Part shown: positions 1,848-7,609 of the stretch, piece by piece | Layout of the letters: every line of letters starts with the position of its first letter | Position numbering within the stretch: position 1 is the first letter of the stretch | Origin: Aliarcobacter sp. | GTDB lineage: Bacteria > Campylobacterota > Campylobacteria > Campylobacterales > Arcobacteraceae | Length of the DNA stretch: 59,737 bases | Reading direction: 5' to 3' | NCBI GenBank assembly: GCA_028703945.1 | Contig: JAQVLW010000001.1 | Span: 1-59,737 of the forward strand | Notes under the pieces: generated by a model | What the model was told of the DNA's origin: nothing | Databases searched by the model: none | Seen by the model: only the letters and a program-made list of their open reading frames with translations | Position numbers and translations under genes: made by a program

Positions 1848-3161
1848 TTATTTTAAAATAATTTTTACATCATTCAAACTTTTCAAATCAGCAAAATTAT
1901 TTAATAGTGTTGCCAATTGAACAACATCATTATTTTTCATTCTTATACATCCAGCTGATTCATTTGTTCCTATTGTATTTTCATTTAGTGTTCCATGAAT
2001 TCGATATGTACTTTTTCCATCAACTTCATGGGTAAGATTTATTTTTGCAGCACCCATATAGTTGTATTTATTTCCAGGAGGAACAACACTTGGAAGAAAA
2101 ATTCCTCTTTTTTTAAAACTATTAATTGTATCTTGTGTTGGATACCAAACTGGATTTAAGGATATTTTGCTAACTTTTCCTAATCCAAAAGGTTTTTTAA
2201 TATTATCTTTTCCTGTTGATACTCTATAAGTTTTTATATCTTTTATTTGATTATCTATTTTTGCTTTTACACTCATATAATTATTTATAGAATCAACTTC
2301 TATTAAAATTTCTTCATATTTTGCTACATTTAAAAGAGGATTTGAACTATCTTCTTTTTTTATTTTAGCTTTCTCTATTTTTTCCACTTTTACAGGAACT
2401 TCAGGTTTTTCTACTTTTTCATAAGTTGTTACTCTTTGAACTTTTTCAATCGTATCAACAAGTTTTTCTAATTTTTCAACTTTTGGAGCTTCTACAACCT
2501 TTTCAATTTCTTTTGGTTTTTCTATTTTTTCAGGAGCTTTTTTTGACTCTTTTTGCTCATCTGCTTTATCAAACTCATCCATACTTATTTGTCTTAATTC
2601 TTCAATATATTCTAACTCTTGTTTTGAATAAACAACTTGTTTTTTTTGTTTTTTAGTAATTTCAGTAGAAAGATTTTGTCCCTCTTCAAAAGGATATGAT
2701 TGTACTAATTGCAACTCTTCGGCTTTTGGATAAATTGAAACCAAGTCTATTAATTTTTCTCTTTTTTTAGTTTTATTTGTAGTTTCATTATTCATTACAA
2801 TCTCTTCAATAGGAGTATTTAAATCAATAATTTGTTCATTCTTTTGTTTTAAAATTAGGACGTTATTTGGTATCTTTTTTATAAAAGGCATTTGTTTTTT
2901 CACATATGACGATGCCATTTTTATGGCATACTTAGCGCTATTTTCATCAGTAAAAATACCAAGATTTGTTAGGTATTTTCCATTTTCTTTTACTATAAAA
3001 ACATCTGATTTTACATCATTTGCTAAAACTTTATATTTACAAGTTAGTGCATTGTCAAGACTAAAAGTTGTACAAACCGAAATTGTATATTTTTCATTTG
3101 TTGCATAAACAGATGAGATACTGTTAAGCATAAATAATAAAGGTAAAACTTTTTTTATCAT
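1848..3161 (-). CDS. L,D-transpeptidase (YkuD) with SPOR-like N-terminus
   Basis: Periplasmic peptidoglycan enzyme, 437 residues. A signal peptide (about 1-20) is followed by a SPOR-like segment (about residues 25-105, with GKYLTNLGIFTDENSAKYA), which would bind septal or denuded glycan. A long, highly charged region (about 150-290) is full of repeated Lys-Glu-Pro-Val units such as VEKLEKL and VEKPEVPVKVEK, and looks like an extended spacer. The C-terminal YkuD domain (about 290-437) carries the catalytic motif H389-G-T...S-A-G-C405-I-R-M, with Cys405 as predicted nucleophile. The family makes 3-3 cross-links, attaches lipoproteins, or in relatives of Campylobacter and Helicobacter acts as a carboxypeptidase that shapes the cell. 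Which activity applies here cannot be read from sequence. The ribosome site upstream of the ATG is weak. Confidence 0.85.
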   Translation of the reverse strand: MIKKVLPLLFMLNSISSVYATNEKYTISVCTTFSLDNALTCKYKVLANDVKSDVFIVKENGKYLTNLGIFTDENSAKYAIKMASSYVKKQMPFIKKIPNNVLILKQKNEQIIDLNTPIEEIVMNNETTNKTKKREKLIDLVSIYPKAEELQLVQSYPFEEGQNLSTEITKKQKKQVVYSKQELEYIEELRQISMDEFDKADEQKESKKAPEKIEKPKEIEKVVEAPKVEKLEKLVDTIEKVQRVTTYEKVEKPEVPVKVEKIEKAKIKKEDSSNPLLNVAKYEEILIEVDSINNYMSVKAKIDNQIKDIKTYRVSTGKDNIKKPFGLGKVSKISLNPVWYPTQDTINSFKKRGIFLPSVVPPGNKYNYMGAAKINLTHEVDGKSTYRIHGTLNENTIGTNESAGCIRMKNNDVVQLATLLNNFADLKSLNDVKIILK

Positions 3162-3331: not shown

Positions 3332-4555
3332 ATGTTATCAAACGACAATTTAATTGACTTAAGTTCAATAAAATATCAAACAACTTGTAAACCAATATCA
3401 AGAATATTTACTTTACTTACAATTCCTACTGCTTTATTTGCAATAATAATTTTATGTTATTTAGGAAAATTACCTTTAAAAGTAGAGATTCATAGTGTTA
3501 TTTTAATAGGATTTATTTATTTTATTTATTTATTTTTTATAATACACAATGCTTATTATGTTTCATGCAAATTTAAAACTCAATATACAGCGATGTTTTT
3601 TTCATTAAAAGAGTATGTTGATAATAATTTATTAACAATTGATAATTCTACAAAAGCAAATGGAAGTTTTGACGACTTTTTAAAAGATTACACAAGTAAC
3701 TTAAGAAATACAAATTTTTCATCAATTGCATCAGGAATTTTCCCAACACTTGGAATTTTAGGAACTTTTATTTCAATCGCTCTTAGTATGCCAGATTTTT
3801 CATCTGGAACTACAATTGCACTTGAGCAAGAAATTTCACATCTTTTAGGTGGAGTTGGAACTGCATTTTATGTTTCAATTTATGGAATATTTTTATCAAT
3901 TTGGTGGACTTTTTTTGAAAAAATTGGAATGAGTAGATTTGAACATGATACTTTTTTAATCAAAGAATCAACTAAATCATTTTTCTGGACAAGAATTGAT
4001 ATTGAATCAATTCACATAAAAAGTAACCTTGATAATTTTTCTAAAATGTCAGAGGTATTTGATAAATTAACTTCAAGTAACATGATGGATAATATAAATC
4101 ATCTAATTGAAAAAAGAGTTGAAATTTTAGATGAAATTCTAAAAAAAGAGTTGATTTTATCAACAAAAATTAGTGAAAATATTGATAATAATGAAAAATT
4201 ATCTACAATGTTAAAAGATATGACTTTAAACATGAGTACAACTATCAAAAGTTTTGAACAACAAAAAGATTCATATACTCTTAGTGCTCAGCTTTTAAAT
4301 AATAGTATTGGAAAATTAAATGGTCATTTAGACAATTTAAGTTCAGATAATCTAAAAGCAATTTATTCAAATATTGTTAAAAGTATTGAAACTATGAAAA
4401 GTGATATGGAAAAAATCGAGTGGAAATTTAAACAAGGTTTAGATGAATATGACACTAAATTTACAGATAAATTACAAACTTCCCTAGAATCAATAGACCA
4501 ACAAACAGTAAAAATAATAGAAGATTTAACGCAATTTAAAGAACTATCAAAGTAG
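3332..4555 (+). CDS. MotA/TolQ/ExbB-type proton-channel protein, ZorA-like
   Basis: Inner-membrane stator-like subunit of 407 residues. Two N-terminal hydrophobic segments (about 22-45 and 52-77) are followed by a cytoplasmic stretch, then the conserved channel pair (about 131-155 with GIFPTLGILGTF, and 171-196 with GGVGTAFYVSIYGIF). The last ~200 residues form a long hydrophilic, probably coiled-coil cytoplasmic tail, as in ZorA of Zorya defence systems; ordinary MotA and ExbB lack such a tail. The tail here is shorter than the ZorA tails I know. The start has a good AAGGA ribosome site. The gene lies 6 bp upstream of a MotB/OmpA-type partner, so the two form a MotAB-like pair. No zorC, zorD or zorE is adjacent, so a defence role is unproven; transport or envelope maintenance are alternatives. 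Confidence 0.8.
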   Translation: MLSNDNLIDLSSIKYQTTCKPISRIFTLLTIPTALFAIIILCYLGKLPLKVEIHSVILIGFIYFIYLFFIIHNAYYVSCKFKTQYTAMFFSLKEYVDNNLLTIDNSTKANGSFDDFLKDYTSNLRNTNFSSIASGIFPTLGILGTFISIALSMPDFSSGTTIALEQEISHLLGGVGTAFYVSIYGIFLSIWWTFFEKIGMSRFEHDTFLIKESTKSFFWTRIDIESIHIKSNLDNFSKMSEVFDKLTSSNMMDNINHLIEKRVEILDEILKKELILSTKISENIDNNEKLSTMLKDMTLNMSTTIKSFEQQKDSYTLSAQLLNNSIGKLNGHLDNLSSDNLKAIYSNIVKSIETMKSDMEKIEWKFKQGLDEYDTKFTDKLQTSLESIDQQTVKIIEDLTQFKELSK

Positions 4556-4561
4556 ATAAAA

Positions 4562-5572
4562 ATGTACAATAACGAACAAAAAAACGAAGAAAACTTCTGG
4601 ATTTCTTATGCAGATTTGATGGCAGGTTTACTTTTTGTATTTATTTTAGTTCTTGGAGCTATTGTAATAAAATATGTTTATTCGCAAAATAACTTAGAAA
4701 AAGAGAAACTAGCCCTAAATCAAAGTCAAGAAGAACTAATAAATAAAAATGAAGTTTTAAATAAATTAAATACTTTAATAAAAAATCTTGAAGCTGAAAA
4801 ATCAGAATTATCAACTCAGTTATCAAAATCAAATGAAACAATTAATCTAAATAATGAAGAATTTCAAAAATTAAAAGATGTTTTATTGGGTTATGAATTA
4901 AAAGATAAAGAACAAACAACTGAACTTGAAAATAGACAAAACCAGATAACTTTAAAAGATAGTGAACTTACAGTTTTAGTAAATAAACTTTTAGAACAAG
5001 AAAAGGCTCACCAAAAAACCGTTGAAGAGTTTGATATTACAAAAGCGAAAATTAAAACTTTAACTGGAATAAAAATTAATGTTATCAAAAAACTAAAAGA
5101 AAAATTAGGAAAATCTATAAATATAGATGAAAAAAGTGGAGCTATAAAATTCTCTTCAAATATTTTATTTGACCAAGGTGCATATAAACTAAAAGAAGAA
5201 TCAAAAAAAGAGTTAAATGGAGTATTAAAAAACTATATATCAACTCTACTTGAAGATAAAGAGATTAGAAAATATATCCATGGAATAACTATTGAAGGGC
5301 ATACAAATAGTGATGGTTCGTATTTAAGTAACTTACAGCTTTCCCAACAAAGAGCCTTGGAAGTTATGCAATTTTTATATGAATCAAATACGATAAATAA
5401 AGAATTATTAAATAAATATGTAAGTTCAAGTGGGAAATCATCTTCTGAGTTAATTTATAATAAAGATGGTTCTGAAGATAAAGATAATTCAAGAAGAATT
5501 GAGATTAAATTTATCATCAAAAATGATGAAGCAGTAAAAGAACTTCAAAATTATTTAGGAGAAAAAGAGTAA
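4562..5572 (+). CDS. MotB/ZorB-like protein with OmpA peptidoglycan-binding domain
   Basis: Partner of the preceding channel protein, 336 residues. A short cytoplasmic N-terminus leads into one membrane helix with the motif FWISYADLMAGLLFVF. Asp18 in this helix is the expected proton-carrying residue of MotB-type stators. Residues ~45-165 form a long Glu/Lys/Leu/Asn-rich periplasmic coiled coil, longer than in the usual ZorB or MotB plug-linker. The C-terminal OmpA-like domain (about 185-325) has SNILFDQGAYKL and IEGHTNSDG, followed by NLQLSQQRALEV, typical of diaminopimelate-binding domains. A rigid coil between the membrane and the cell wall would hold the anchor at a distance. The gene ends in TAATG, giving a 1-base overlap with the next small ORF and suggesting translational coupling. 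Confidence 0.82.
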   Translation: MYNNEQKNEENFWISYADLMAGLLFVFILVLGAIVIKYVYSQNNLEKEKLALNQSQEELINKNEVLNKLNTLIKNLEAEKSELSTQLSKSNETINLNNEEFQKLKDVLLGYELKDKEQTTELENRQNQITLKDSELTVLVNKLLEQEKAHQKTVEEFDITKAKIKTLTGIKINVIKKLKEKLGKSINIDEKSGAIKFSSNILFDQGAYKLKEESKKELNGVLKNYISTLLEDKEIRKYIHGITIEGHTNSDGSYLSNLQLSQQRALEVMQFLYESNTINKELLNKYVSSSGKSSSELIYNKDGSEDKDNSRRIEIKFIIKNDEAVKELQNYLGEKE

Positions 5573-5706
5573 TGGAAATATCAAAAGAAACTCTTTATAA
5601 ACCCAAAAAACTTGAAGCGCTAAGGGCCGATGTAAGCGAAAAACTAAAGAAGAAAAGTAGATTTTCTTTCTTTAGAAAAATCAAGAGATTCTTTTTTGGG
5701 AAATAA
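5572..5706 (+). CDS. Small basic protein coupled to the MotB/ZorB-like gene
   Basis: A 44-codon ORF whose ATG overlaps the stop of the preceding gene (TAATG at 5570-5574). It begins MEISKETLYKPKKLEALRAD and ends with a Lys/Arg/Phe-rich segment, SRFSFFRKIKRFFFGK, which would be strongly basic and membrane-seeking. It has no recognisable domain. Its position as third gene of the motor-like pair suggests an accessory cytoplasmic or membrane-surface peptide. Its last 26 bases overlap the 3' end of the convergent dehydrogenase gene. That this ORF is translated is inferred from the coupling geometry and the non-random composition. Confidence 0.55.
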   Translation: MEISKETLYKPKKLEALRADVSEKLKKKSRFSFFRKIKRFFFGK

Positions 5707-6622
5707 ACTCTTTTATATTACTTGCTACCATTTGAACAAGTCTATTTCTAGCTTCAATACTTGCCCAACCAATATGTGGAGTTAATAAAAGTCTATCTTT
5801 ATTTTTCACTTTTAAAAGTGGATTATCTTCTAAGATTGGCTCAACAGCAACAACATCAATTCCACAATAAATCTCTTTTTCATCTATAATTTTTGCTAAA
5901 TCAGGCTCATTTATAATTCCACCTCGACCAAGATTTAATAAAATTGCTCCATCTTTGATATTTTTCATATTTTTATAATTTAATAAATCTTTTGTATTTT
6001 CATTTAATGGACAATGAATACTTATAATATCGCAAGTACTTAATAACTCATCTAAACTAACTTGTTTATATTCACTATTAGAATTTTTTCCACTTGTTGA
6101 AAAATACATCACTTCACAATCAAAAGCTCGTGCTTTTTTTGCAAAATTTCTTCCAATATCACCAAGTCCAATAATTCCTACTTTTTTACCATCAAGTTCA
6201 AAAAATGGTTTATCTATATGTGTAAAAATTTGCGATTTTTGCCAATTACCAACATCCACATATTTTTTATAATAATCAAGTTTTTGTACTATATGAAAAA
6301 TCATAGAAAAGGCTAATTGAACTACGCTTGAACTTGAATATCCAGCTACATTTTTCACTTCAATATTTTTTTGTTTTGCAAACTCTAAATCCACATTATT
6401 TGTTCCTGTTGCACTAATACAAATAAGTTTCAAATTTGAATTATCCATAACTTCTTTTGAAATCACTACTTTATTTGTGATTACTATATCTGTGTCTTTT
6501 AATCTATTTATGGTTTGAGTCTCATTTGTAATCTCATAACTAGTTACTTCACCTAAAGAGTCAAAGACACTCAAATCAATATCAAATCCTAAAGTTGCTC
6601 TATCTAAAATTACTATTTTCAT
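5681..6622 (-). CDS. D-2-hydroxyacid dehydrogenase (NAD-dependent)
   Basis: Cytosolic oxidoreductase of 313 residues, the normal family length, that interconverts a 2-oxoacid and a D-2-hydroxyacid. The split catalytic domain flanks a Rossmann domain with G152-L-G-D-I-G157. The catalytic set is present: Arg233 (in LGRGG), Glu261 (in VEP) and His283 (in TPHIGW). It resembles glycerate/hydroxypyruvate or D-lactate-type members; substrate cannot be fixed from sequence. The gene starts 9 bp after the stop of the HTH regulator, with a GGAG ribosome site lying in the regulator's last codons, so the two genes are almost certainly one operon. It converges on the small basic ORF at 5572-5706. Confidence 0.85.
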   Translation of the reverse strand: MKIVILDRATLGFDIDLSVFDSLGEVTSYEITNETQTINRLKDTDIVITNKVVISKEVMDNSNLKLICISATGTNNVDLEFAKQKNIEVKNVAGYSSSSVVQLAFSMIFHIVQKLDYYKKYVDVGNWQKSQIFTHIDKPFFELDGKKVGIIGLGDIGRNFAKKARAFDCEVMYFSTSGKNSNSEYKQVSLDELLSTCDIISIHCPLNENTKDLLNYKNMKNIKDGAILLNLGRGGIINEPDLAKIIDEKEIYCGIDVVAVEPILEDNPLLKVKNKDRLLLTPHIGWASIEARNRLVQMVASNIKEFISQKRIS

Positions 6623-6631
6623 ATTTTTCTC

Positions 6632-7609
6632 CTAATTTCTTCTTTGTCCTGGTTTTGGTGGTGTTACTTCTTTTTGTAAATCAATACTTAAATTATTATA
6701 AAAAAGCTCTCCGTAGTTTGTTTCTCTATTTATCATCTCATAAGCTTGTTTAATGTCATTCCCATATTTAACTGCATCTTGTAAAATCTTGATAATTTTT
6801 ACAGATTCTAAAAAGTTCACATGAGAAGGTGCTTCAAGTGGTGAACTATAATATTTATGCATTCGCTCAACCAATGATTTATTTCTAATTTCAATAAAAA
6901 CTGATTCTATTGGCGATTTAAAAAATAGAATTTTTTGTTTTACATTTATAGAAATATATGTTGTTTCCATTCCATATACTTTTCTTGAGAAAGAGTCAAA
7001 TAGAAATAATTTTTTATTATAGTTATTGTTAAATAATTCATAAATAAGTTCAAGTATTTTTATCTTCTCTTCTTTTGTATAAAAGTTTCCAATAATTGCA
7101 AAACAAAAAGATAAAATCGATTTTATCGAATACCATTCAGTTGTGTCATAGTCATATCTTAACATTTGATCAATTCTTGCTTGCTTTAATTCTTCTATAT
7201 CAGAACTATTTGTAGTTTTGTACACTTTTTGTACAGCTGAATCCCTATACATCGGTCCTGGGAATTGAGCTTGTATAACAAATCTTCTATTTTGTTCCTG
7301 TTCTAATATGTATTTTAATCTTCCTTGATAATCTTCATCAATAATTCTTACTTCTTTTTGAGGTATTTGAGTTATTGATTTTAAGAACTCTTCACCATTA
7401 CAACCATCTTCCCAAACATAATCTGGATACCTAAATGTTTGACAAATTTTATCCTTTATTTCTTTATTTGGTTCAATATCAGTTACCTTATCAATCCACG
7501 ATGTAACCGTTCTTCTATCTTTGTTTATTAAAACTGCAAATTTAGAAATACTTAAGTTTGACCTTTTGAAAATTTCTATGAATTTTTCTATTGAATTTTT
7601 ATAATTCAT
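6632..7609 (-). CDS. HTH (XRE-like) regulator divergent from the prp operon
   Basis: A 325-residue protein I cannot assign to a named family. The N-terminus (about residues 15-42, ...NLSISKFAVLINKDRRTVTSW...) reads as a Cro/C1-type helix-turn-helix. The remaining ~270 residues form a predicted soluble domain, with no membrane segment and no known catalytic motif seen. It is transcribed divergently from prpB across a 174-bp spacer that contains repeats, and it sits upstream of a 2-hydroxyacid dehydrogenase in the same operon. By position it is the best candidate regulator of the methylcitrate genes. It is not the sigma54-type PrpR of enterobacteria and has no visible AAA+ domain. Actinobacterial RamB/PrpR regulators are also XRE-like, but similarity to them is not shown here. 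Confidence 0.6.
   Translation of the reverse strand: MNYKNSIEKFIEIFKRSNLSISKFAVLINKDRRTVTSWIDKVTDIEPNKEIKDKICQTFRYPDYVWEDGCNGEEFLKSITQIPQKEVRIIDEDYQGRLKYILEQEQNRRFVIQAQFPGPMYRDSAVQKVYKTTNSSDIEELKQARIDQMLRYDYDTTEWYSIKSILSFCFAIIGNFYTKEEKIKILELIYELFNNNYNKKLFLFDSFSRKVYGMETTYISINVKQKILFFKSPIESVFIEIRNKSLVERMHKYYSSPLEAPSHVNFLESVKIIKILQDAVKYGNDIKQAYEMINRETNYGELFYNNLSIDLQKEVTPPKPGQRRN

Follow-up and report, generated by a model that had tools for sequence, protein, structure and literature searches.

A ZorAB-type motor pair coupled to a small third gene in the core genome of Aliarcobacter: a probable housekeeping relative of Zorya

Introduction

To our knowledge, Zorya motors are known only as parts of defence systems, and what the rotation of the ZorA rod achieves is unsettled. 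The present study concerns a motor pair of this type, genes A and B, and a small third gene, C, which follow one another in a 59,737-nucleotide stretch of DNA from Aliarcobacter sp. (NCBI GenBank assembly GCA_028703945.1, contig JAQVLW010000001.1, positions 1 to 59,737 of the forward strand), referred to throughout as the window. With moderate confidence, the three products are read here as a ZorAB-type 5:2 ion motor to which C adds a small, dedicated third subunit; together they would form a mostly vertically inherited core machine of Campylobacterota that serves a cellular task and not phage defence, and the pair is probably a relative of Zorya with a housekeeping role. In the described ZorB, D24 (ion) as well as H186, R203 and R254 (peptidoglycan) are essential for defence (PMC11890865), and a beta-sheet within the cytoplasmic domain has been described as a feature that only Zorya-type proteins possess (PMC12505986).

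The motor pair

Gene A (positions 3332-4555, + strand) encodes a ZorA-like motor subunit of 407 amino acids that matches the Pfam family MotA_ExbB at 29.2 bits, over the Pfam cut-off. Its AlphaFold2 (AF2) model, with a predicted local distance difference test score (pLDDT) of 80, comprises transmembrane helices (TM) 1 at residues 21-43, 2 at 53-72, 3 at 127-152 and 4 within 161-213, a beta-hairpin at 100-109, and an all-helical tail that starts near residue 216 and extends up to residue 406. A fold search of the PDB with this model returned six matches at E<0.001, every one of them a ZorA (nearest 8qyd/8vvn), whereas TolQ was matched only at E 0.09; the best PADLOC model for A is ZorA1, at 48 bits. 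Gene B (4562-5572, + strand) encodes a ZorB-like subunit of 336 amino acids, for which the best PADLOC model is ZorB1 at 198 bits, with ZorB3 reaching merely 51 bits, and by sequence comparison the closest solved relatives of both proteins are ZorA and ZorB. In B, a single TM carrying the motif YADLMAG with Asp18 is followed by a long periplasmic coil (one TM/coil helix at about residues 5-182 of the AF2 model, pLDDT 80) and then by a C-terminal, peptidoglycan-binding OmpA domain (Pfam, 50 bits). As read from motifs rather than from superposition, the essential ZorB residues correspond to D18 and H247, which are nearly invariant among 32 sequences, and to R264 and R312, which are invariant. 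Members of the window pair's family have a B of 313-491 amino acids, as against 235-292 in Zorya of the same order and in Helicobacter-type ZorB. The open reading frames (ORFs), domains, models and this length comparison thus agree with the preliminary description of the DNA, which had recognized a MotA-like protein, a long-coil MotB-like protein and a TAATG-coupled ORF of 44 codons.

The cytoplasmic rod of A (residues 216-407, positions 3977-4552, + strand) was profiled across 35 Arcobacteraceae sequences. The middle of the rod (residues 246-335) is variable, with a mean pairwise identity of 0.52, and conservation returns at the rod end (0.80 at residues 336-361) and at the tip (0.65 at residues 379-407); such a pattern would suit a spacer with a docking site at its end. 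The rod end is also conserved in one clade that lacks C (0.62 vs 0.37), so that C need not be the sole docker there. A co-occurrence of C with a motif at the tail tip of A was considered and found imperfect, as this motif, IDxE, persists in the C-less lineages f10 and f20.

Separation from true Zorya

The preliminary description had proposed a ZorAB-type motor devoid of the C, D and E effectors, and this proposal is borne out by the sequence and structure matches given above together with the gene content: none of zorC, zorD and zorE adjoins the pair. ZorC (PF15611, EH signature) has no match in this genome or in the genus, and only 1 of 150 relatives has it; for ZorE, no credible match was obtained in the genus, and in this genome the sole candidate is an HNH match of 23 bits on a different contig. 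Consequently, a ZorC or ZorE encoded in trans was rejected, none being credible. Assignment to Zorya type I failed because the neighbours are not ZorC or ZorD (ZorD was sought only at the locus), assignment to type II failed because no ZorE nickase stands beside the pair, and assignment to type III failed because they are not ZorF or ZorG, neither of which was searched elsewhere in the genome. True Zorya of the same order served as positive controls, with ZorC and ZorD in locus L105 and ZorE in loci L153-L156.

In NCBIfam the best models are again ZorA and ZorB, both far under their cut-offs: ZorB1 gives 75.8 bits against 400, and ZorA gives 33.1 bits against 250, or 29.5 against the lowest cut-off of 100. 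Hidden Markov models (HMMs) built from the window pair's family separate it from Zorya; for A, independent members score 306-484 bits (215 for the cut-off fragment in L170) and true Zorya 22-56, and for B, independent members score 291-477 bits, true Zorya 65-86 and the Zorya-like ZorB of L106-L109 88-95. The window pair's family also forms one group in the ZorB tree (support 78), and two genomes, G243 and G213, each hold both a window-type pair and a true Zorya. Another effector-free pair was observed in the Helicobacter-like family f13, in which a ZorA2-like protein of 873-890 amino acids and a ZorB2-like protein (L106 5473-8888, L107 6806-10224, L109 4883-8331) lie directly after exbB/exbD-like genes, in L107 before peb4-fba-like genes, with no ZorE adjoining.

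The small third protein

Gene C (5572-5706, + strand) encodes a basic protein of 44 amino acids; it overlaps the end of B through a TAATG junction, with AGGAG shortly 5' of its start. Across the loci, C is coupled to zorB at 52 of them, comprising 30/30 intact loci of the genus, 6/6 of the sister genera (counting loci with the same A clade) and 16 in other families, and its start lies from 52 nt before to 5 nt after the zorB stop. Outside the genus, C keeps the same place and design with little sequence identity in at least five other families; the design consists of an N-terminal [FY]xPKxL, a variable basic middle and a C-terminal helix rich in Phe, Trp and Lys, within a total of 38-68 amino acids. 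In an unbiased test, an HMM made from the genus only was run against 13,055 stop-to-stop segments from 55 loci outside the genus, and yielded ten matches with E<0.01, nine of which begin at most 45 nt from the zorB stop; an iterated HMM admitted a low-complexity false match in L108, hence the first, genus-only round alone was used. C is moreover under purifying selection, with nonsynonymous differences (pN) proportionally fewer than synonymous ones (pS) in 434/435 pairs and a median ratio of nonsynonymous to synonymous rates (dN/dS) of 0.38, vs 0.25 for A and 0.27 for B. Judged from these comparisons of sequence, C is a real conserved ORF beyond chance; no convincing match to it was found in Pfam, NCBIfam, PADLOC, PHROGs or the PDB. 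The earlier suggestion that it might be an effector is unlikely to be right, given its small size, the near absence of invariant residues and the lack of any conserved catalytic residue.

On the B tree, the distribution of C needs four changes, which fits an ancient gene with some three to four apparent losses (in a Campylobacter/Sulfurimonas-like clade and others). In L084 and L162, about 33 nt past the zorB stop, an ORF of 29-30 codons contains IYPRHLLKLHK, is similar to the beginning of C and is possibly what is left of it. Within Arcobacteraceae, a second clade of the pair (L089-L093, L096, L098, L099) lacks both C and the IDxE motif; it groups with other families, which suggests some exchange or transfer, or else an old duplication.

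Distribution and genomic context

Genomes were sampled at one per species. Of the 31 genomes of the genus, that of the window counted, 30 carry the pair, and the exception is an assembly that is 87% complete; by B, the nearest named relatives (83-96% identical) are Aliarcobacter metagenome-assembled genomes and Arcobacter caeni, and the genome is Aliarcobacter-like. The identity of A to the window's copy correlates with that of MotA, an unlinked gene (Spearman 0.69, p 0.0003, 23 genomes), with a p value inflated by kinship. Across the phylum, most members of several families contain a strong match to the B profile (E<1e-50), and A and B, without C, also occur in Campylobacter-type genomes. The Campylobacter pair, which we take to be Cj0598-Cj0599, appears in the literature as 'function unknown', apart from one mention of Cj0599 as the major outer membrane protein, which does not fit.

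Among plasmids, phages and viral contigs, no related copy of similar length was found, and a mobile origin was rejected, for the matches there are short, distant pieces of OmpA or true ZorB, none covering 80% of B. The immediate neighbours are metabolic and envelope genes, and they change little across most of the genus; a defence island was likewise rejected on account of these neighbours and of PADLOC, which gave no match for the two flanking genes that were run. The pair is near-universal in the genus, sits at a fixed chromosomal place amid metabolic genes and lacks mobile copies; together these features argue for a core function, and they leave the defence role implied by the preliminary description unsupported.

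On the 5' side of A lies a divergent L,D-transpeptidase gene (1848-3161), an arrangement that most of the genus shares; its product has a long Lys/Glu-rich N-terminal region. C is followed by a 2-hydroxyacid dehydrogenase gene in convergent orientation (5681-6622), and the two overlap by 26 nt at their 3' ends (5681-5706); farther on are genes taken from their sequences to be prpB, prpC and an aconitase gene. A 325-amino-acid protein adjoining prpB/prpC (6632-7609), without a Pfam match and conserved in 24 loci, is possibly a regulator. Elsewhere in the genus, the usual MotA is missing from several genomes (L199-L203), which encode a stator-like protein that is just 25-27% identical.

Proposed mechanism and competing explanations

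By homology to the ZorAB structures (PMC11890865), and with models made here of the A and B monomers, the following 5:2 mechanism may be proposed. B would dimerize, span the inner membrane and anchor to peptidoglycan through the OmpA domain that ends its long coil; five copies of A would encircle B, and an ion gradient used at Asp18 of B would turn the A pentamer, which would carry the helical rod into the cytoplasm. C would be a cytoplasmic accessory made from the same messenger RNA by coupled translation, its N-terminal helix docking on the cytoplasmic face of A, most likely along the rod or at the conserved stretch that ends it, and its basic, Phe-rich C-terminal helix possibly holding the inner membrane or another partner. 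More tentatively, the pair might represent a class of ZorAB that is spread throughout the phylum, non-immune and furnished with a third subunit of its own, and of which Zorya motors would be specialized mobile relatives, C standing at the tail place of the Zorya effectors; this broader proposal is possible, and we hold it with considerable doubt.

A minimal or trans-acting Zorya-like defence, in which ZorAB senses damage to the phage-attacked envelope and the output is C or an effector encoded elsewhere, appears unlikely. It draws on the homology of A and B to ZorAB and on the conserved rod end, which resembles an effector-docking site, and must be set against a pair that is near-universal in the genus at a fixed locus without mobile copies, a C that is too small and variable for a nuclease, a genome with neither zorC nor a credible ZorE, and the report that ZorAB alone is insufficient for defence (PMC8565338). 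A flagellar stator in an accessory or alternative role, or an envelope motor of the Tol kind, would share the 5:2 superfamily and the peptidoglycan anchor; it is improbable, given that the best matches and the nearest fold are ZorA and ZorB rather than MotAB or TolQR, that the plug match stays under its cut-off, and that the complete genome G009 (locus L051) keeps A, B and C with no MotA match. The genome encodes five other MotA/TolQ/ExbB proteins, so the pair is not a housekeeping MotAB or TolQR, in line with the preliminary description. That C is a regulatory leader or merely a coupled ORF, and not a motor subunit, would accord with its poor conservation between families and its repeated loss; this is very unlikely in view of protein-level selection, of the same position and design across families, and of the convergent gene that comes next, which leaves no same-strand downstream gene in the window to couple to.

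Several points weigh against a core ZorAB-type machine with C as its third subunit. The pair is missing from several genera, and is thus not essential in the phylum; outside the genus its neighbours change without a theme, none pointing to a task; and a core defence whose effectors are encoded at other loci could still account for the pair. As for C, the amphipathic character of its helix, measured as hydrophobic moment, is mostly no better than in shuffles of single sequences, and the conservation and coupling expected of the small ORF hold at the loci where it occurs and not at about 20 related loci, the Campylobacter-like family f10 included, that keep A and B without it; since A and B persist there, the motor can work without C. 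The core machine is nevertheless the preferred reading. In culturable bacteria, a ZorAB family that is core, free of effectors and accompanied by a minimal dedicated partner offers a simple test system for the motor's own output; defence finders that rely on ZorA/ZorB matches alone may miscount such pairs as Zorya; and the C family adds a tiny partner protein, previously unnamed.

Comparison with known systems

The locus resembles ZorAB of Zorya I/II (8qyd, 8vvn, 8vvi) in its MotA/TolQ-type A with a helical cytoplasmic tail and a beta-hairpin, in its B with a TM Asp and an OmpA peptidoglycan domain, and in the adjacency of the two genes. It differs in carrying the small C in place of zorC/D or zorE, in being core rather than patchy, in being separable by HMM, and in its proportions, as window-type A proteins have 354-526 amino acids, with a tail shorter than that of ZorA I (645 amino acids in L105), whereas the coil of B is longer. 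Zorya III (ZorABFG) likewise combines ZorAB with partners other than C, D and E; these are, however, DUF3348/DUF2894 proteins (PMC8565338) and not a 44-amino-acid peptide.

With the MotAB stator, the pair shares the 5:2 superfamily and a peptidoglycan anchor, but its B reaches only 17.8 bits with MotB_plug, under the 24-bit cut-off, and it is kept where MotA is absent. With TolQR/ExbBD, it shares the superfamily of the A subunit; in contrast to these systems, B ends in an OmpA domain and not in a TolR/ExbD one, no TolA/TonB-like partner stands beside the pair, and A extends a long tail into the cytoplasm.
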